Positions 32,755 through 57,817 of a stretch of 64,000 nt of DNA are shown piece by piece. The stretch spans positions 1,321,501 to 1,385,500 of the forward strand of contig NZ_CP080545.1 of NCBI RefSeq assembly GCF_019550795.1. Reading direction: 5' to 3'. Below the pieces are notes generated by a model. The model was given only the letters and a program-made list of their open reading frames with translations. It searched no databases and had not been told where the DNA came from. The position numbers and the translations under genes are program-made. How positions within the stretch are numbered: the first letter of the stretch is position 1; every line of letters begins with the position of its first letter. Source of the DNA: Paenibacillus sp. sptzw28. Lineage in GTDB: Bacteria > Bacillota > Bacilli > Paenibacillales > Paenibacillaceae.

Positions 32755-33671
32755 TGAGGCTTCAAAGGATATGGAAACGCGTCTGGTATCGGGAGAGGGA
32801 ATTATGGTCAATCAATCTGTTTGCGATTGCTTGGGTAGTTGTCTTTGCCTATATTCCGATGTATGGAATCATCTACAGCTTCTTTAATTATTTTCCCGGG
32901 AAGAAGCTGAGCGATTCCGAGTTCGTCGGGCTGAAATATTATATCGAGTTCTTCTCGCTGCCGGATGTCTGGCTTATTTTGCGAAACACGCTTGTCATCA
33001 GCGGTCTGAATTTAACACTCGGATTTGTTGCGCCTATCATACTTGCGCTCTTGATCAATGAGATCAGAATGGTGAATTTCAAGCGGGTCATTCAAACCGT
33101 TTCCTATCTCCCCCATTTCGTATCCTGGATCGTGGTGGCGAGCATAATCTTCACAATGCTCGGAAACGAGGGGATCGTTAACGAAGTGCTGATGAAACTC
33201 GGCTGGATTCAGGAGCCCCTTCACATTATCGGAGAAGGGAAATACTTCTGGGGGCTGCTCACGTTCTCGAATATATGGAAGGGGATAGGCTGGTCGTCGA
33301 TCATCTATATCGCCGCGATTGCCGGGATCGATCAGGAGCTCTATCAGGCCGGAGCCGTTGATGGCCTTGGAAGATTCGGCATGGCTTGGCATATTACGCT
33401 TCCCGGGGTCAGGCCGACAGTGCTTCTGCTGTTCATACTCGGCGTAGGCAGCTTGCTTAACGCAGGCTTCGAACAGCAATTGCTCCTCGGCTCGCCCACA
33501 ACAAGGGAATATCACGAGGTCATCGATACCTATGTATACAGGTACGGCATACAGCTAGGCCGCTACTCGTTTGCGACGGCGGTCGGATTCATGAGCTCCA
33601 TACTGGGATTGGCGCTGGTGCTGCTGACGAATAAGCTTTCGAAGAAACTGACCGATATGTCAATCATCTGA
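32751..33671 (+). CDS. ABC transporter permease (LplB/YteP type)
   Basis: 306 aa with six membrane segments. The start codon overlaps the stop of the binding-protein gene (ATGA), implying translational coupling. The EAA loop reads ELYQAGAVDGLGRFGMAWHI and the N-terminal FAIAWVVVFAYIPMYGIIYS helix is typical of this subfamily. Together with the next gene it forms the transport channel. Confidence 0.9.
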   Translation: MMRLQRIWKRVWYRERELWSINLFAIAWVVVFAYIPMYGIIYSFFNYFPGKKLSDSEFVGLKYYIEFFSLPDVWLILRNTLVISGLNLTLGFVAPIILALLINEIRMVNFKRVIQTVSYLPHFVSWIVVASIIFTMLGNEGIVNEVLMKLGWIQEPLHIIGEGKYFWGLLTFSNIWKGIGWSSIIYIAAIAGIDQELYQAGAVDGLGRFGMAWHITLPGVRPTVLLLFILGVGSLLNAGFEQQLLLGSPTTREYHEVIDTYVYRYGIQLGRYSFATAVGFMSSILGLALVLLTNKLSKKLTDMSII

Positions 33672-36694: not shown

Positions 36695-37609
36695 TTGAAG
36701 ATGAAAGGGTGGGCAATCATCGTGCTTGTGGTGCCGATGCTTTTGCTGGCAGGCTGCGGACAAAAGACAAATGATCCGGCTGCGGCAAGCGGCAGTTCAG
36801 GCGGAACAGGCGATGAAGCAGCTCAAGATACACTAGCGAAAGCCAAGAAGCAGGGGTTTATTACGGTAGGATTTGCGAATGAGAATCCGTATGCTTACAA
36901 AGGTGCGGATGGAAAATTGACAGGCGAGGCGGTTGAGATCGCCCGCGTCATTCTGCAGAGGCTTGGAATCAATGAAATGAGAGGCGAGCTGACGGAGTTT
37001 ACCTCACTTATCGCCGGACTGCAGGCCAAACGGTTCGACCTGATCACGGCTGGGATGTTTATTAACCCGGACCGCTGTCAGGCAGTGCTGTTCGCCAATC
37101 CTGAATACAGCATTGGGGAAGCAATTGCGGTCAAGAAAGGAAATCCGCTTAAGCTAAACAGCTACAAATCCATCGCGGATAACGATAAAGCCAAGGTTGC
37201 CGTGATGGCCGGTGCGGTTGAAATCGGCTATTTGAAAGCATCGGGAGTACCGGAAGAACGGATGGTCGTCGTTCCGGATCAGGACGGCGCCGTCAGCGCT
37301 CTGCAGTCGGGCCGTGCAGACGTCATGACAATGACAGGACCAGCCCTGCAGTCCCGGCTCGATACGGCTAAAGACGGCAATCTGGAACGCGTGATGGATT
37401 TCGAGCAGCCTGTCGTGGATGGCAAGGATGTACGCGGATTCGGCGCTACCGCTTTCCGGCCGGAGGATACCGCTTTCCAGCAGGCCTTCAATGCGGAGCT
37501 GCAGAAGATGAAGGAGTCGGGCGAGCTGCTGACGATACTGAAGAAGTTCGGCTTCACCGAGCAGGAGCTGCCCGGGGACGCAACAGCCGAGCAGCTCTGC
37601 AAAGGGTAA
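36695..37609 (+). CDS. ehuB: Ectoine/hydroxyectoine ABC transporter substrate-binding protein EhuB
   Basis: About 304 aa from TTG 36695 (ATG 36701 is the alternative). A signal peptide ends in lipobox LLAGC, so it is a lipoprotein. It belongs to the polar amino-acid-type binding proteins (SBP family 3): ITVGFANENPYAYKGADGKL, EFTSLIAGLQAKRFDLITAG and RCQAVLFANPEY, with the EhuB-like C-terminus TAEQLC. It captures ectoine or 5-hydroxyectoine outside the cell. First gene of the ehuBCDA-ectABCD operon, with ehuC starting 1 nt after its stop. Confidence 0.9.
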   Translation: MKMKGWAIIVLVVPMLLLAGCGQKTNDPAAASGSSGGTGDEAAQDTLAKAKKQGFITVGFANENPYAYKGADGKLTGEAVEIARVILQRLGINEMRGELTEFTSLIAGLQAKRFDLITAGMFINPDRCQAVLFANPEYSIGEAIAVKKGNPLKLNSYKSIADNDKAKVAVMAGAVEIGYLKASGVPEERMVVVPDQDGAVSALQSGRADVMTMTGPALQSRLDTAKDGNLERVMDFEQPVVDGKDVRGFGATAFRPEDTAFQQAFNAELQKMKESGELLTILKKFGFTEQELPGDATAEQLCKG

Positions 37610-40348: not shown

Positions 40349-41647
40349 GTGAATTTTCCCAAGGAAGCCGGTACATTGCATGTTTTTGACACGCTGGAAT
40401 CCGAAGTGCGGAGCTACTGCCGCAGCTTTCAGGCTGTGTTCGACAAAGCAAGAAATGCCAAGGTGTGGGATGTGAAGGGCAATGAATATATCGACTTCTT
40501 TGCAGGCGCAGGAGCGCTTAATTATGGACACAACAATCCGGCAATCCGTCACAAGCTGATCGGTTACATGCTTGACGATGGTGTGACGCACAGCCTGGAC
40601 ATGGCGACGAAAGCGAAGGAAGCGTTTCTTACACGGTTTAATAAGTCGATTCTAAAACCGCGCGGACTTGATTACAAAATCATGTTCCCCGGTCCAACCG
40701 GAACCAATTCCGTAGAAAGCGCGTTGAAAATCGCCCGCAAAGCGACTGGCCGAACCAATATAATTTGCTTCACGAATGCGTTTCACGGTATGTCCCTCGG
40801 CTCGCTGGCGGCGACGGGTAACACGTTTAAACGAAAAGGAGCGGGCGTGGATCTTCCGAACACGACCTTTATGCCTTATGACGGATACCTCGGCGAACGG
40901 ATCGATACGGCGGAGATATTGGCGAAGCTTCTGGGCGACCCGGGCAGTGGAGTCGATCTGCCGGCAGCGGTCATTCTGGAGACGGTTCAAGGAGAGGGCG
41001 GTCTGAATGTAGCCGGATTCGCCTGGCTGCGGCGGATTGAAGCGCTGTGCCGGAAGCATGATATTCTGCTCATCGTCGATGATGTGCAGATGGGCTGCGG
41101 CCGCACCGGCTCCTTCTTCAGCTTCGAAGGCTCCGGCATTGAGCCGGATATTGTCTGTCTGTCGAAGTCGATCGGCGGTTACGGCTTGCCGCTAGCGCTC
41201 ACCCTGATCAAACCGGAATACGACCTGTGGTCGCCGGGCGAACATAACGGCACCTTCCGCGGCAATAATCTCGGCTTTGTGGCGGCGTCCGAAGCGCTCT
41301 CCTATTGGGAGAAGGACACGTTCAAAATTGAACTCGCCGGAAAAATACGCAGGATTCACAATGCATTGGAGCAGCTTCTGGCCGATCATCCCCAGGTGGA
41401 TGCGCACATCAAAGGCAGGGGCATGATCCAGGGCATATCCTTCGCAAAGCCCGAGCTTGCCGCCCGTTTAAGCGCTGCCGCCTTCAAAAACGGCGTCATT
41501 ATGGAAACATCAGGGCCGTACGACGAAGTGGCGAAGCTGATGCCGCCTCTCACTATCGAGCCTTCCGTTCTTGAGGAGGGACTCGCAATCATCCGCAAAA
41601 GCTTCGTGGAGGTCGTTCAAGCCGAACCCGTCGAGGCAATCGTATAG
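40349..41647 (+). CDS. ectB: Diaminobutyrate-2-oxoglutarate transaminase EctB
   Basis: 432-aa class III aminotransferase that converts L-aspartate semialdehyde to L-2,4-diaminobutyrate using glutamate, the first step of ectoine synthesis. GTG start at 40349 with AAGAAGGA upstream. The PLP lysine is in [14 protein letters not shown], and [20 protein letters not shown] and [12 protein letters not shown] complete the cofactor site. Length and order are typical for EctB. It is followed by the 405-nt repeat array rather than directly by ectC. Confidence 0.95.
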
Positions 41648-42052
41648 CGTATGCTTCCGAAGTGAGGTTCAACTCGCAGAGGTGAAACCCCGGAAGCATC
41701 GTTAAAAACTCAGCGTAAGCTTTCGAAGTGAGTTTTTAACTCGCCGAGGTGAAACCCCCGGAAGCATCGTTAAAAACTCAGCGTATGCTTTCGAAGTGAG
41801 TTTTTAACTCGCAGAGGTGAACCCCCCGGAAGCATCGTTAAAAACTCAGCGTATGCTTTCGAAGTGAGTTTTTAACTCGCCGAGGTGAAACCCCGGAAGC
41901 ATCGTTAAAAACTCGGCGTATGCTTTCGAAGTGAGTTTTTAACTCGCAGAGGTGAAACCCCCGGAAGCATCGTTAAAAACTCAGCGTATGCTTTCGAAGT
42001 GAGTTTTTAACTCGCAGAGGTGAAACCCCCGGAAGCATCGTTAAAAACTCTT
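41648..42052 (+). repeat. Tandem array of six 66-68 nt structured repeats between ectB and ectC
   Basis: Units start at 41648, 41714, 41782, 41850, 41917 and 41985. Each carries ATGCTTTCG with a near-matching CGGAAGCAT, and GAGTTTTTAAC with its exact complement GTTAAAAACTC; unit 1 is the most diverged. The last arm of one unit and the first arm of the next form an 11-bp hairpin around AGCGTATGCTTTCGAAGT. The array ends at the ribosome binding site of ectC. No spacers and no cas genes, so this is not a CRISPR. Confidence 0.92.
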
Positions 42053-42067
42053 AAGGAGCGCATTCAT

Positions 42068-42472
42068 ATGAAAGTAAAGCAACTGGACGAAATCATTGGT
42101 ACTAAAGATGATGTCGATACGGACACTTGGAATGCCCGCCGGCTCCTTCTCCGTAAGGACGGTATGGGGTTCTCCATGCACGATACTCTTATTAAAGCCG
42201 GTACAGAGACTATGATTTGGTACCGTAACCATGTTGAAGCGGTCTACTGTATCGAGGGGGAAGGCGAGATCGAGCTCGCCACCGGCGAAGTATATCCAAT
42301 TCGGCCGGGAATGCTGTATGCGCTGGATGGACACGAGAAGCATTACCTTCGTGCAAATACCCGGCTCAGGATGGTTTGTGTGTTCAACCCTCCTCTGACC
42401 GGGCGCGAGGTTCATGATCAAGACGGCGTTTATCCATTGGTGGAAGACAACGAATTGGAAGCGAGGTGCTGA
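42068..42472 (+). CDS. ectC: L-ectoine synthase EctC
   Basis: 134-aa cupin enzyme that closes the ring of N-gamma-acetyl-diaminobutyrate to ectoine. ATG 42068 is preferred, with TAAGGAGCG directly after the repeat array; the open frame otherwise runs back into the repeats. EctC core: TWNARRLLLRKDGMGFSMHD, HVEAVYCIEGEGEIELATGE, MLYALDGHEKHYLRA, which contain the Glu, Tyr and His metal ligands of the family. It overlaps the region leading into ectD by a few bases. Confidence 0.95.
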   Translation: MKVKQLDEIIGTKDDVDTDTWNARRLLLRKDGMGFSMHDTLIKAGTETMIWYRNHVEAVYCIEGEGEIELATGEVYPIRPGMLYALDGHEKHYLRANTRLRMVCVFNPPLTGREVHDQDGVYPLVEDNELEARC

Positions 42473-52726: not shown

Positions 52727-55639
52727 ATGAGCATGAATATGATGGAATCGGATTCTGCGTTATCCATACAATGGGCACCCGATTCCTTTCGTATCAACGG
52801 CAAGCCCGAAATTATCCTTTGCGCGTCACTCTTCTATTTCCGCATCGCAAGGGCGGAGTGGCGAAGCCGGATGGAACAGGCCAAAGCGTTCGGCTACAAC
52901 GCAATCGATGTGTACTTCCCGTGGAATTACCACGAGAAACGCGAAGGTGAGTGGGATTTTAGCGGGGAACGGGATATCGAGGACTTTCTGAAGACCGCCG
53001 CTGAGGTCGGGTTATGGATCATCGCACGTCCCGGACCATACATTTGCTCTGAATGGGATGGCGGGGCGCTTCCGGCCTATTTATTTGCCAAGGAAGGTAT
53101 GACGCTCCGGGATAACGATCCCGCCTTTCTGCACGAAGTTTCCAGATGGTTTGACCGGATTTTACCGCTTATTCAGCGGTATGAGCTTGGCCGGGGAGGT
53201 ACGGTGATCGCCGTTCAGCTTGACAACGAGCTCGACTTTTACGATTGCAGCGATCCCCATGGGTACATAGCGGCCTTGCGGGACATGGCGCTGAACCACG
53301 GCATTCAAGTTCCTCTCATTGCTTGTGCCGGGCAAGGCGGACTGCGTGAGGCATCGGGATTCGCGGAGGGTGTGGTGCCTACTTGCAATTTCTATCCCAA
53401 TGACCTCGACCCGGAGTTTGAGCAGAAAGTAACGGCTTATAAGAACGAGCTTGCAGCTAGAGGACTTCCTCTGCTTGTGACGGAGACGAACCGTTCACAC
53501 TTTCTGCTGCGGCGTCTGCTCTCCTGCGGAACGAAGCTGCTCGGACCCTACCTTCAGGTGTCCGGCACCAACTTCGGCTTTACGAATGCAACGAACAATT
53601 GGGGAAAGCCGCTTGCGTTTATGACTTCGGATTATGATTTCTACGGAATGGTTTCGCCGGAAGGGCGGATACGGGACGAGGCGTACGAAGGGCGTATGCT
53701 GCACCGAATCATTCAGGCTTACGGCAGCTCGCTTGCCGAGGGGAAACCGGCCTTGAACCTGAGCATGGTTGTCGGCGGCACGAAGAATACGGCGGTGAGA
53801 CAGAGTCTGGAGCTGAAACAGGGCGGTAACCTGCTGTTCGTCACGAATGTCGGTAACCAAACTGAAGAAATCAGTCTTCGGCCAGGTTCGGTTCAGAAGG
53901 ATATCAAGAGAGTTTGTCCTGCCGGGGAGTGTGCGATACTTCCGATCGACGTGCCCCTTGGCACATGGGGGCTTTCCGGAACGCTCCTTTATGCGACAGC
54001 CGAGCTGACCGACGTGAAGCAGACTTCCTCCCGGACCGTCATGGTGTTTCATACGGAGCGCGCAGGTGAGATTGCCATACGGCTTGATGAACGGTACGAG
54101 GCCGAGACGGACACGAGTAATATGTGGCTAACCGAAGAGGGAGATTTACTGACGATTTCTTTCACGGCCGATTGCATATCGACGTGCCGGATTCAATTGA
54201 ACGGGGGACATCTCCTCGAGCTGATCGGGATGAAACGAACGGATGCGCTGCTCCTTGAGGAGATCAATGAAAGCGGAAACATAGTAGTAGGGGATAAAAA
54301 AACGTACGACCTTGAACCCCGTACCATGGAGAACGCTTGGAGCACCAGCCGAATTGATCCGTCGGCTTCTATGTCGGGAGGATCGCCGATTGCTCTCGAT
54401 AAAGCGGATTTTCTCGAAAATCAAGGCTTTTACCGAGGGTACGCCTGGTATGAAGCGTCATATAAGTATCCTGCCCATGAGTCGCTGCAGGGTGTGCTTA
54501 TTCGACAGGGGAGCGACGTGGTTTCGCTCTACAACGGATTGCGCTACATCGATACGGTCACACCAGGTGGCGGCAGCCGTTATGTACCGGTAAGCGCCAG
54601 CGGCAATGCATACGATGCCGGGAACGTCGAAAACACAGGCAAGAAGGGCGGCAATGGCGGTTCAGGCGGTCGATCAGGCCAATTTAACGCACGGGTGGAA
54701 ATATGGGGACACACGAACTTTGACGATGCCCGGCTGCCCGGCCTGCGGCTGAATGCGCGTAAAGGCCTCACTGGGTTGACAGCGGTTACAGATGCGAAGA
54801 ACATTACCTCGAACTGGCGGGTGTTGCGCACGAATACGCGTGAGCTTCAAGCGGAATTGATCGATCCCGGCTTAGACGACAGACATTGGCCGCTTGTAAG
54901 CTTTGGCAATTGGATGTCTCCGGATCATCCCGCGTTTGAGTATTACCGGAGAAGCTTCCGGGCCGGAGAGGATGCCGATTCGTGGACGCTTCATTTTCAA
55001 GGGCTGCAAGCTGTGGCACGAGTATTTGTAAACGGCATGGAGATTGCAAATGCGAATCCGTTCGACCCCTACCTGGATATCAGTGCTTTTGTGACACCGG
55101 GCGAAACCGTTCATATCTCAGTTTTTCTCGAGCGGGTGCTGGGGCTGCCGGCCGGTAACGTGCTTGTCTATGAAGGAAGCGCGGCCGCCGAGTGGAAGCT
55201 TTCCGCTGCGGAGGAGCCGGAGCTGCTGCGGCATGCAGCCGGCAGTCGGATTGAATCCGTTTTAACGGAGATGCCGCTAATGCTTGAGCCTGGCGAAATG
55301 TGCTGGCTGTATGGCATGCTGCAGGATTCGAATGATGGTGCCGGCTGGCGCGTATTCGTTCGAGGGAGCAATATGAAGCTTACAATATTCTTCAACGGCC
55401 AGCTGGTTGGACGATTGTGGACCCCCGGAGGCGAAGCGCGGCCGGTCATGACAGGCGGCGACCCGGATTCCTTTTACTTGCCGGGTGCATGGTTCTGCGA
55501 AGAAGAAGGCAAGGAAGGCAATGAGCTGACCATTATGCTGGAAGCGGTTGTGGCAGGGGCAACTTCCGTTCTTGAAGGATTGGCATTCATTCCCACAGTC
55601 ACACAGATTCTGAAAGAGAAGGGAGGAACAGCCGGATGA
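52727..55639 (+). CDS. Glycoside hydrolase family 35-like beta-galactosidase
   Basis: 970 aa from ATG 52727, with AAGGGGTG 8 nt upstream; an ATG at 52691 has no such site. No signal peptide, so it is cytoplasmic. The N-terminal catalytic barrel (about 20-340) shows FRIARAEWRSRMEQAKAFGY, NAIDVYFPWNYHEKREGEWD and RPGPYICSEWDGG. The acid/base Glu is E168 in VQLDNELDF and the probable nucleophile is E253 in VTETN. Beta domains follow, with a Gly/Ser/Asn-rich linker near 640-655. It is coupled to the following permease by a 4-nt overlap. Confidence 0.85.
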   Translation: MSMNMMESDSALSIQWAPDSFRINGKPEIILCASLFYFRIARAEWRSRMEQAKAFGYNAIDVYFPWNYHEKREGEWDFSGERDIEDFLKTAAEVGLWIIARPGPYICSEWDGGALPAYLFAKEGMTLRDNDPAFLHEVSRWFDRILPLIQRYELGRGGTVIAVQLDNELDFYDCSDPHGYIAALRDMALNHGIQVPLIACAGQGGLREASGFAEGVVPTCNFYPNDLDPEFEQKVTAYKNELAARGLPLLVTETNRSHFLLRRLLSCGTKLLGPYLQVSGTNFGFTNATNNWGKPLAFMTSDYDFYGMVSPEGRIRDEAYEGRMLHRIIQAYGSSLAEGKPALNLSMVVGGTKNTAVRQSLELKQGGNLLFVTNVGNQTEEISLRPGSVQKDIKRVCPAGECAILPIDVPLGTWGLSGTLLYATAELTDVKQTSSRTVMVFHTERAGEIAIRLDERYEAETDTSNMWLTEEGDLLTISFTADCISTCRIQLNGGHLLELIGMKRTDALLLEEINESGNIVVGDKKTYDLEPRTMENAWSTSRIDPSASMSGGSPIALDKADFLENQGFYRGYAWYEASYKYPAHESLQGVLIRQGSDVVSLYNGLRYIDTVTPGGGSRYVPVSASGNAYDAGNVENTGKKGGNGGSGGRSGQFNARVEIWGHTNFDDARLPGLRLNARKGLTGLTAVTDAKNITSNWRVLRTNTRELQAELIDPGLDDRHWPLVSFGNWMSPDHPAFEYYRRSFRAGEDADSWTLHFQGLQAVARVFVNGMEIANANPFDPYLDISAFVTPGETVHISVFLERVLGLPAGNVLVYEGSAAAEWKLSAAEEPELLRHAAGSRIESVLTEMPLMLEPGEMCWLYGMLQDSNDGAGWRVFVRGSNMKLTIFFNGQLVGRLWTPGGEARPVMTGGDPDSFYLPGAWFCEEEGKEGNELTIMLEAVVAGATSVLEGLAFIPTVTQILKEKGGTAG

Positions 55640-56604
55640 AATCAATTGCTGAACCCGCCGTTTTAACGAATACCCGGGAGCAGAGCAAAAACTCGCGTTT
55701 CAGGAGGTTCTGGAACAACAAGACGCTCATTCTGATGTGTTTGCCGGCCATCGTATTCTTTATTATTTTCGCATATCTGCCGATGCCAGGCCTTTATCTG
55801 GCTTTCATTAATTACAACTATACGGACGGCATCTTCAAAAGTGCGTTCGTCGGCTTTGATAATTTCCGGTTTCTCGTAATGACCGGAGATCTCTGGCGGC
55901 TTACCTTCAATACGGTCGCTTACAACCTTGCGTTCATCGTGCTCGGCAATTTTCTTCAAATCTTTGTGGCAATTTTGCTCAACGAGCTGAGGAAGAAATG
56001 GTTCAAGAAGCTGTCCCAGACCATTATGTTTCTGCCTTTCTTCATTTCATTCGTCATCATTGGCTTGATCGCTTACAACATTCTGAGCTATGACTACGGT
56101 TTGCTCAATGTCATCCTGACATCACTCGGGGCGGATCCGGTGAAAACCTACTCCAACCCAAGCATCTGGCCCTTCATTATCATTATTACGTTCTTATGGC
56201 AGTCGACCGGCTACGGATCCATTGTATATTTCGCAGCTATAATGGGGCTGGACAGCGAGGTGGTTGAGGCTTCGGAAATCGATGGCGCCAACGCCCTTCA
56301 GCGCATCCGGTATATCGTTCTCCCATGGCTGAAGCCGACGTTTATCATTCTTCTGCTGTTCTCGCTCGGCGGTGTTCTGCGAGGCAACTTCGGGTTGTTT
56401 TACAACCTGGTCGGAGCCAACAACACGGCGCTGTATGCGACCACGGATATTATTGAGACGTACGTGTTCCGTTCGCTTATGAACAATTTCAACTTCTCCA
56501 TGGGCAGCGCGGTCAGCTTGTACCAGTCCGTATTCGGTTTTATCGTTGTCATTACCGCCAACTGGCTGGTGAAGAAGTTCTCGCCTGACAATACGTTATT
56601 TTAA
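55636..56604 (+). CDS. ABC transporter permease (LplB type)
   Basis: 322 aa with six membrane segments. The ATG overlaps the GH35 stop by 4 nt (ATGA) and has GGGAGGAAC upstream. EAA motif: SEVVEASEIDGANALQRIRY. Same subfamily as the 32751 gene. Between it and its partner permease lies the second tandem repeat array. Confidence 0.9.
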   Translation: MKSIAEPAVLTNTREQSKNSRFRRFWNNKTLILMCLPAIVFFIIFAYLPMPGLYLAFINYNYTDGIFKSAFVGFDNFRFLVMTGDLWRLTFNTVAYNLAFIVLGNFLQIFVAILLNELRKKWFKKLSQTIMFLPFFISFVIIGLIAYNILSYDYGLLNVILTSLGADPVKTYSNPSIWPFIIIITFLWQSTGYGSIVYFAAIMGLDSEVVEASEIDGANALQRIRYIVLPWLKPTFIILLLFSLGGVLRGNFGLFYNLVGANNTALYATTDIIETYVFRSLMNNFNFSMGSAVSLYQSVFGFIVVITANWLVKKFSPDNTLF

Positions 56605-56894
56605 AACGCCAAGCTTATGCTTACGAAGAAGCGTTTCCAAGAATAACGCCAAGCTTATGCTTACGAAGAAGCGTTTTCTAAGAAAAACGCCAAGCTTATG
56701 CTTACGAAGAAGCGTTTTCCAAGAAAAACGCCAAGCTTATGCTTACGAAGAAGCGTTTTCCAAGAAAAAACGCCAAGCTTATGCTTACGAAGAAGCGTTT
56801 TCCAAGAAAACGCCAAGCCTATGCTTACGAAGAAGCGTTTTCCAAGAAAACGCCAAGCTTATGCTTACGAAGAAGCGTTTTCCAAGAAAACGCC
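56605..56894 (+). repeat. Tandem array of seven ~41-nt structured repeats (plus a partial) between two permease genes
   Basis: Units of 40-42 nt with the consensus AACGCCAAGCTTATGCTTAC followed by GAAGAAGCGTTTTCCAAGAA. Each can fold as AAAACGC / GCGTTTT around a loop with TATGCTTACGAAG, the same core as the array at 41648-42052. The array begins directly after the stop of one permease gene and ends with a partial AACGCC just before the ribosome binding site of the next. It reads open in several frames and would falsely lengthen the following gene. Confidence 0.92.
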
Positions 56895-56911
56895 TTAGGA
56901 GGGTTGCTAAA

Positions 56912-57817
56912 ATGGAAGCTGTCCAAAAAAGGATACGCACGGATGCGGCATCCGTGGCGGTGCGGGCGTTCGGATATGTGTTCATCGGATTGTTCTCGCT
57001 ATGCTGTTTGCTTCCTTTTCTCCTTGTGCTGGGAACTTCCTTTACAGCAGAAGGAGCTATCACGAAGTTCGGGTTTAACATCTGGCCGAGAGAATTCAGT
57101 ACGTTCGCTTACAAAATTGTGTTTGAAAATCCCGATCAGATTCTCGGAGCGTATGCCGTCACGATAGGCATTACTTTGGTAGGTACCGCGGTAGGATTAT
57201 TCCTCGTCGCGATGACCGGATATGCGCTTCAGCGGCCGGATTTCGAGTATCGCAACGGCATTTCCTTCTTCATTTATTTCACGACGCTGTTCTCCGGCGG
57301 TATTGTGCCGTTCTACTTGCTGATGACGCAGTATTTGAGCCTGAAGGACAATTATTTGGCCGTTCTTCTGCCTGGTTTAATGAGCCCGTTTCTCATCATC
57401 ATGATGAAGAGCTTCACCAAATCGATTCCTCATGCCATAACCGAGTCCGCCAAAATTGACGGAGCGGGGGATTTTACGATCTTCATGCGTCTCATTCTGC
57501 CGATGACGACGCCGGCGCTGGCTACGATCGGTCTGTTCATTGCCCTTGGCTATTGGAACGAATGGTATCACGCGATGCTGTTCCTCTCGCCTGATATGAA
57601 ATACAGGCCGCTGCAGCTGTTTCTGTATAACGTCATCACGAGTGCGGATTTTATCCGAAATTCCTCGGCTTCATCGAACGTTCCGCTGAGCGATATGCCG
57701 CTGGAATCGATGAAGATGGCAACTGCGGTTGTGGCGACAGGGCCGGTCATACTCTTCTATCCTTTTATTCAGAAGTACTTTATTCAAGGGATAACGGTTG
57801 GCGCAGTCAAAGGATAA
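56912..57817 (+). CDS. ABC transporter permease (LplC type)
   Basis: 301 aa from ATG 56912, with TTAGGAGGG 9 nt upstream. An open frame extends back through the repeat array to 56657, but those residues are repeat translations. Six membrane segments; the EAA loop reads IPHAITESAKIDGAGDFTIF; the C-terminus YFIQGITVGAVKG is typical. Partner of the 55636 permease. Confidence 0.92.
   Translation: MEAVQKRIRTDAASVAVRAFGYVFIGLFSLCCLLPFLLVLGTSFTAEGAITKFGFNIWPREFSTFAYKIVFENPDQILGAYAVTIGITLVGTAVGLFLVAMTGYALQRPDFEYRNGISFFIYFTTLFSGGIVPFYLLMTQYLSLKDNYLAVLLPGLMSPFLIIMMKSFTKSIPHAITESAKIDGAGDFTIFMRLILPMTTPALATIGLFIALGYWNEWYHAMLFLSPDMKYRPLQLFLYNVITSADFIRNSSASSNVPLSDMPLESMKMATAVVATGPVILFYPFIQKYFIQGITVGAVKG

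Follow-up and report, generated by a model that had tools for sequence, protein, structure and literature searches.

Hairpin repeats placed directly upstream of Shine-Dalgarno sequences in Paenibacillus sp. sptzw28 as a candidate family of mobile leader RNAs

Two tandem arrays found in the window (the whole analysed stretch of 64,000 nucleotides of the Paenibacillus sp. sptzw28 genome) consist of units that recur throughout that genome in one orientation, directly upstream of Shine-Dalgarno (SD) sequences. We proposed, with a probability of roughly 0.56, that these units represent a new family of hairpin repeats that home to the SD and act in cis as leader RNA. According to this proposal, new copies would be gained between the A or AG and the GAGG of an SD, in a single orientation, so that neither the SD nor its distance from the start codon would change, and arrays would then arise by tandem duplication. 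In the mRNA the last hairpin would lie directly 5' of the SD, the stem would be kept paired at individual loci by selection, and the copies would influence the gene behind them in cis.

Repeat units and their position in the genome

The coordinates of the features are collected in Table 1. The short-unit array was recorded by Tandem Repeats Finder with a period of 40, 7.2 copies and 96% matches, and its seven exact cores started at 56616, 56656, 56697, 56738, 56780, 56820 and 56860, the core-to-core spacings being 40, 41, 41, 42, 40 and 40 nt. An earlier note on this DNA had set the limits of the array at 56605-56894; the seven units of ~41 nt were recovered, and the true start was found at 56603, a position within the stop codon (56602-56604) of the permease gene that precedes the array. 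In the last unit the arm at 56875-56882 pairs with the arm at 56886-56893, which is followed by CTT, the SD and the ATG at 56912. The long-unit array had a period of 68, 6.0 copies and 95% matches, with five exact cores and one core carrying a mismatch. The predicted folds of the short-unit and the long-unit array were better than those of all 100 dinucleotide shuffles (z -3.66 and -8.04, respectively), and for several internal units of the long-unit array the folding program chose a stem with the core in its loop. A leader peptide starting from the ATG inside the core appeared disfavoured, as unit spacings of 40-42 nt keep no reading frame.

Table 1. Features of the two arrays and of the genes next to copies of the repeat (positions in the window)
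Feature	Position	Strand	Basis or remark
Gene upstream of the long-unit array, class-III aminotransferase (PF00202)	40349..41647	+	
Long-unit array, 6 units of ~68 nt	41646..42050	+	same family as 56603-56894
SD AAGGAG after the long-unit array	42053..42058	+	
Gene downstream of the long-unit array, ectoine synthase (PF06339)	42068..42472	+	
Gene upstream of the short-unit array, ABC transporter permease (PF00528)	55636..56604	+	Pfam
Short-unit array, 7 units spaced 40-42 nt	56603..56894	+	cores and Tandem Repeats Finder
First exact core TATGCTTACGAAG	56616..56628	+	exact pattern match
Terminal hairpin GCGTTTTC-CAA-GAAAACGC	56875..56893	+	3 nt 5' of the SD
SD AGGAGG	56897..56902	+	directly 3' of the last unit
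Gene downstream of the short-unit array, second ABC transporter permease (PF00528)	56912..57817	+	Pfam
Downstream genes elsewhere (1): MutS, gyrase/topoisomerase IV subunit A, ATP synthase beta-type, L15, HslV-type peptidase			Pfam
Downstream genes elsewhere (2): SRP54, phosphoglucose isomerase, peptidyl-tRNA hydrolase, threonyl-type tRNA synthetase, flagellar rod/hook protein			Pfam

The recurring unit was composed of the core TATGCTTNCGAAG, a short linker and a hairpin whose 3' foot adjoins the SD, with a tail such as CTTTTAG on the 3' side of the hairpin. Nearly all arrays end alike, namely in the hairpin 3' arm, a few T or A, an SD such as AGGAGG and the start codon. The loops are tiny in short units and, by eye, roughly 30-50 nt in the long ones; the distance from the last core to the start codon is usually near 50 nt in the former and 80 nt in the latter. 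The SD lies 6-9 nt from the start codon in 133 of the 160 distinct elements with an open frame (an open frame was present in 162 of 182 parsed elements, and the parse demanded an SD).

The hairpin had been described in the earlier note as closing around a loop that contains the core. Either register is possible, as each 5' arm can also pair with a downstream 3' arm; in the last unit of the short-unit array both arms exist only in the SD-side register. When the presence of an arm was scored as a run of at least 6 Watson-Crick pairs, 36 of 41 arrays had the SD-side downstream arm at their last unit, and 19 of 41 had an upstream arm ahead of their first. Hence, the SD-side hairpin was taken as the general register, and the core-in-loop hairpin did not hold as the sole structure, being retained as an alternative; in long-unit arrays the two registers are predicted to compete. 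By eye, the upstream arm was absent from the single copies L292, L306, L309, L312, L322 and L324. The variable core base N was C in 41 of 74 long and in 1 of 83 short distinct units (Fisher p 3e-16, with shared descent uncontrolled), as expected if the core of long units paired with GGAAG in their loop in a putative pseudoknot or alternative fold. A mini-hairpin inside the core (CTT-NCG-AAG) was rejected, its middle pair being broken in 10 of 36 units and no two-sided pair change being seen.

With up to one mismatch allowed, the core occurred 15 times in the window against a shuffle mean of 0.35. Two one-mismatch cores, at 33632-33644 and 36890-36902, lie inside open reading frames, have neither an SD nor a good hairpin, and look like chance matches. 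Genome-wide, 101 exact cores were found against 2 for the pattern read backwards, in agreement with the earlier view that the two arrays belong to one family. All but one of them (100 of 101) fall in the DNA stretches examined, where they mark 41 array loci, and 39 of these loci lie directly at an SD, the one at 2339950 being counted by eye. Further, a covariance model of core and hairpin, which like the exact-core pattern contains no SD, gave at least 154 matches in the genome when 150 of the 2714 candidates from a first look were scored. The model contributed 23 further loci: 19 that immediately adjoin an SD followed by a start codon (three of them with only a short or ATT-start frame), one with the SD 18 nt away and three inside another repeat.

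In total, 58 of the 64 inspected array loci in this genome are in the sense orientation and immediately precede an SD with its start codon, and the location before ribosome-binding sites that had been read from the two arrays was thus found to be general. The six exceptions were four copies in a noncoding repeat, the locus at 5678428 (SD 18 nt off) and the locus at 4204631 (no SD near). At the last of these (G000:C1:4204631, in L063) the hairpin is followed by TTAGTTTGTC and the next SD lies ~100 nt downstream; this could be a copy located away from an SD, or the gene start may since have moved. Each of the four repeat-borne copies is embedded in a CCCCCTAAATCCCCC...GGGACCCC repeat, where it stands at a G-run resembling an SD, with no gene downstream. 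The GC-rich repeat CCCCCTAAATCCCCC ... CCGCCCTCTGGACACC (L063 ~1852 and ~15219; L434, L439, L440) was seen with the hairpin element inside it at four loci, as if the two had spread together as one composite.

The earlier note had also connected the arrays with operons and gaps between co-oriented genes. This was not borne out, since the upstream neighbour was co-directional for 28 of the 38 genes that could be assigned, compared with 461 of 693 among all genes (Fisher p 0.38; the gene calls were crude and ORF-based, and individual neighbour assignments may be wrong), and the tie was to the SD instead. The longest array, of 33 units of 49 nt each that are 97% alike (L436:1837-3429; G000:C1:3005336-3006928), stands directly before the SD of the mismatch repair gene mutS (Pfam MutS domains), and many of its internal units have damaged cores yet intact arms.

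Conservation of the stem and the search for a mover

Over 124 orthologue pairs, which were non-independent, entered only when the hairpin parsed and included multi-unit loci, the divergence was 0.042 and 0.056 in the two arms, 0.283 in the loop and 30% in the linker; in the same pairs it was 0.102 in the core and 0.250 in the 40-nt upstream flank. Eight unique stem changes turned a Watson-Crick pair into G-U and none produced A-C; six were double changes that were still Watson-Crick and 12 broke a pair, although these counts share ancestry and the set is small. A decaying locus, L330, supplied seven of the 12 pair-breaking and four of the eight G-U changes; when it was left out, 4 G-U, 0 A-C, 5 double paired and 5 pair-breaking changes were counted. 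Internal mismatches over 292 distinct units, a set that contains some chance stems, were G-U in 38, A-C in 17 and others in 39 cases, G-U standing against A-C at 16 to 4 in terminal units and, in a weaker excess, at 22 to 13 in non-terminal ones. As an A-C mismatch in the sense strand corresponds to G-U in the opposite strand, this bias points to the sense-strand RNA, and selection apparently keeps the hairpin stem paired in that form.

The covariation of the stem was 0.507 against 0.023-0.065 for slid partners in 36 units that had been pre-selected for pairing. Together with the six double changes this supported the view that stems change and yet stay complementary, as had been suggested from the two arrays. 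The choice offered in the earlier note, a protein-binding RNA or a recombination-prone DNA repeat, was answered in part: the RNA side stood as a hairpin apparently selected in the sense RNA, and the DNA side came down to gain at SD sites plus tandem multiplication.

The constraint on the stem also bears on the possibility that the repeat is purely selfish, has SD-like DNA as its target and needs its hairpin for mobility alone. The target would then set the orientation, and selection would purge the copies inside genes, which would explain the location before genes. Such an element would fit the four of 64 loci that lie at an SD-like G-run without a downstream gene, the patchy copy number (1 to 136 covariance-model units across 22 same-genus genomes) and the functional unrelatedness of the ten downstream genes checked by Pfam (Table 1). 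However, a selfish copy should decay in place, whereas the arms diverge about five times less than the loops at the same sites, and the stem changes to G-U without a counterpart to A-C also speak against it.

A mover of such an element was sought as well. The Y1 transposase is the usual mover of palindromic repeats; PF01797 had 0 matches in this genome (G000) and 20 others of the 22 same-genus genomes, and one weak match of 24.1 bits in G011. An intact reverse transcriptase (PF00078, RVT_1) was absent from this genome, where one fragment with stops was present; PF00078 had no match in G020 or G009, which carry 102 and 35 units, and had matches in the copy-rich G003, G005 and G008. Both enzymes were rejected as movers, neither being intact in this genome. 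Based on these results, a purely selfish element was considered improbable.

Gain and loss of copies and distribution of the family

For the pgk leader (named by eye) the comparison spanned 12 close genomes that belong to a different family of the order, and in 7 of these 15 loci were followed with a query that joined the starts of genes. These loci are the parsed part of 19 that had been picked by similarity to one element, L293, L298, L326 and L327 being unparsed. The presence of the element varied at 11 of the 15 loci as scored by a script, which called L310 in G359 empty where a diverged unit was seen by eye. Nine loci align as pairs of an empty and a filled site; the filled form is 39-45 nt longer and has the SD as its right edge. 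No target duplication, of the kind left by a MITE with terminal inverted repeats, was evident at these pairs: none beyond AG or AAG was present at the aligned insertions, and the AG or AAG may come from the unit itself. From these alignments the insertion point is best read as (A)AG^GAGG; since AG closes the unit as well as the target, the cut point carries an uncertainty of 2-3 nt. At L224 and L306 the left edge fits inexactly, and the left flanks of L295 and L310 were diverged or rearranged. The orthologues of L294 differ in tandem copy number, having 1, 2 or 3 units.

It was also considered whether the element is an ancestral, immobile leader RNA that has long been present and was lost in places. 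Orthologues of pgi, proA, a zapA-like gene and pgk do, by eye, have elements in front of them outside the species or genus, and losses of the element also occur, since G385 alone of the seven genomes has no copy at L324. Against this reading, L312 is filled in one of seven genomes, between TTCGATAAG and GAGGGG with the SD-overlapping stop codon kept, and L292 in two of seven, at the site TATACTTAAG|GAGGC, with seamless empty sites elsewhere. Moreover, the noncoding repeat that holds the copy at 4215741 in this genome has a paralogue without the element (L063 ~1852), which shows the SD-like AAAAGGGGGA at that point; three more loci resemble this composite. An immobile leader was therefore judged very unlikely.

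The core-plus-SD pattern was found in 140 of 296 genomes and 21 of 48 genera of the order, and its reversed control gave one match each in two genomes. In a sample across the class 11 of 299 genomes were positive, namely 9 of 27 from the family of Paenibacillus sp. sptzw28 itself and 2 of 272 others. These two look like chance matches, the hairpin in G632 being terminator-like and away from the SD and the match in G504 having no hairpin. At least 80 named records contained the pattern, and among the matches listed all were from Paenibacillus or Paenibacillaceae. The family thus appears restricted so far to the order of Paenibacillus sp. sptzw28. Seven same-genus species do with 1-4 units each, and the element is therefore dispensable.

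Rfam gave 0 matches at the gathering score over the whole window and none up to E 1 for 56550-56950; for 41600-42100 the only matches lay at E 0.26, with 21 bits against a cut-off of 55 bits. The element was not found described in the literature searched, subscription journals and preprints being outside its scope.

Variants were observed in two leaders. In six of the seven unit-poor species the leader of atpD has, by eye, a bare hairpin before the SD. The atpD leaders L237-L241 (G017, G007, G014, G004 and G002) show core variants with GGAG replacing GAAG, such as ATGCTTCCGGAG in G002, and hairpins of the AGCTTTCC/GGAAAGCT type at the atpD SD. Another element is kept in the g42 genomes compared (L298, L304, L313, L328, L221, L226 and L229) before a gene whose start we take to be that of ribosomal protein L36; in most of these leaders a second small hairpin, GCAAC-ATG-GTTGC, lies between the element and the SD.

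Functionless, slippage-prone tandem repeats would account for the near-identity of units within an array and for arrays of up to 33 copies; they fail to explain single copies at many SDs, a core common to much of an order and conserved stems, and this explanation was regarded as slightly less probable still than an immobile leader. Least probable of all was a DNA site in which TATGCT serves as a -10 box or the core as an operator, with the hairpin as the first nucleotides of the transcript. TATGCT does resemble the -10 hexamer and is placed 5' of the hairpin start, but no constant -35 partner was seen in the arrays by eye, the internal units of the mutS array often have broken cores and whole arms, and the core diverges more than the stem at orthologous sites.

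Proposed action and comparison with known systems

For the preferred reading, a homing repeat that acts as leader RNA, the most likely action would be that the hairpin shields the 5' side of the ribosome-binding site. The shielding could block decay from the 5' end or mark a processed mRNA end, and it could also prevent the SD from being paired by upstream sequence; the copy number would be the dial of the effect. The predicted SD exposure at 84 loci was 0.433 with the unit, 0.392 after its removal in silico (p 0.07) and 0.385 after shuffling (p 0.03); in these models the unit changes the exposure little.

A more specific version, rather doubtful and put forward tentatively, is a ~42-nt cassette that homes to AG^GAGG without duplication and provides copy-number-tunable leader hairpins across a bacterial order. 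Recognition of the SD would then perhaps depend on the CTT in the core of the cassette or on an RNA intermediate. To our knowledge, there is no earlier example of an SD-homing element. An insertion at the SD would place a ready-made RNA structure, able to set expression, in front of a gene that stays unbroken; as the gene is spared, a mobile repeat of this kind could be a genome-wide source of expression variation. Since close species differ in presence and copy number at the same genes, they offer natural allele pairs on which the influence of one hairpin on one mRNA could be tested. If no known transposase underlies the target preference, the insertion mechanism would have to be of another sort.

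REP/BIME repeats are moved by RAYT (Y1) transposases, and IS200/IS605-type elements are likewise palindromic. The present family resembles both in being short imperfect palindromes with many intergenic copies, in having no evident target duplication and a target-set orientation, and in its hairpin with compensating stem changes, seen in part in one unit set pre-selected for pairing. It differs from them in its placement at the SD and in that the Y1 transposase was not found in 21 of the 22 same-genus genomes; unlike BIMEs, the arrays presented here are direct repeats in one orientation and not inverted ones. In Bacillus, mRNA stabilisers such as the aprE leader protect the mRNA by a hairpin 5' of a strong SD. 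The units share this arrangement and may act as stabilisers as well; the aprE type is a leader of a single gene, whereas a dispersed, inserted family is described here.

Among small mobile repeats, ERIC and Correia/NEMIS are considered to influence the decay or processing of mRNA through their RNA fold, and the orientation of ERIC matters (PMC2229807). The present family is similar in size class, mobility and RNA fold; it occurs in other hosts and is set apart by description and not by sequence, the terms Shine-Dalgarno and tandem being absent from that text (PMC2229807). The BOX, RUP and SPRITE repeats of Streptococcus pneumoniae are, like the present one, small intergenic repeats with possible RNA roles; in the review, whose text contains neither Shine-Dalgarno nor ribosome binding, it is again their descriptions, not sequence, that set them apart (PMC10969869). 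The TAACTGA direct repeats of marine Beggiatoaceae overlap the expected ribosome-binding site in genomes where a canonical SD is rare; in contrast to that heptamer, the units described here combine a core with a hairpin, are spaced ~37-81 nt apart and keep the SD (PMC4679880).
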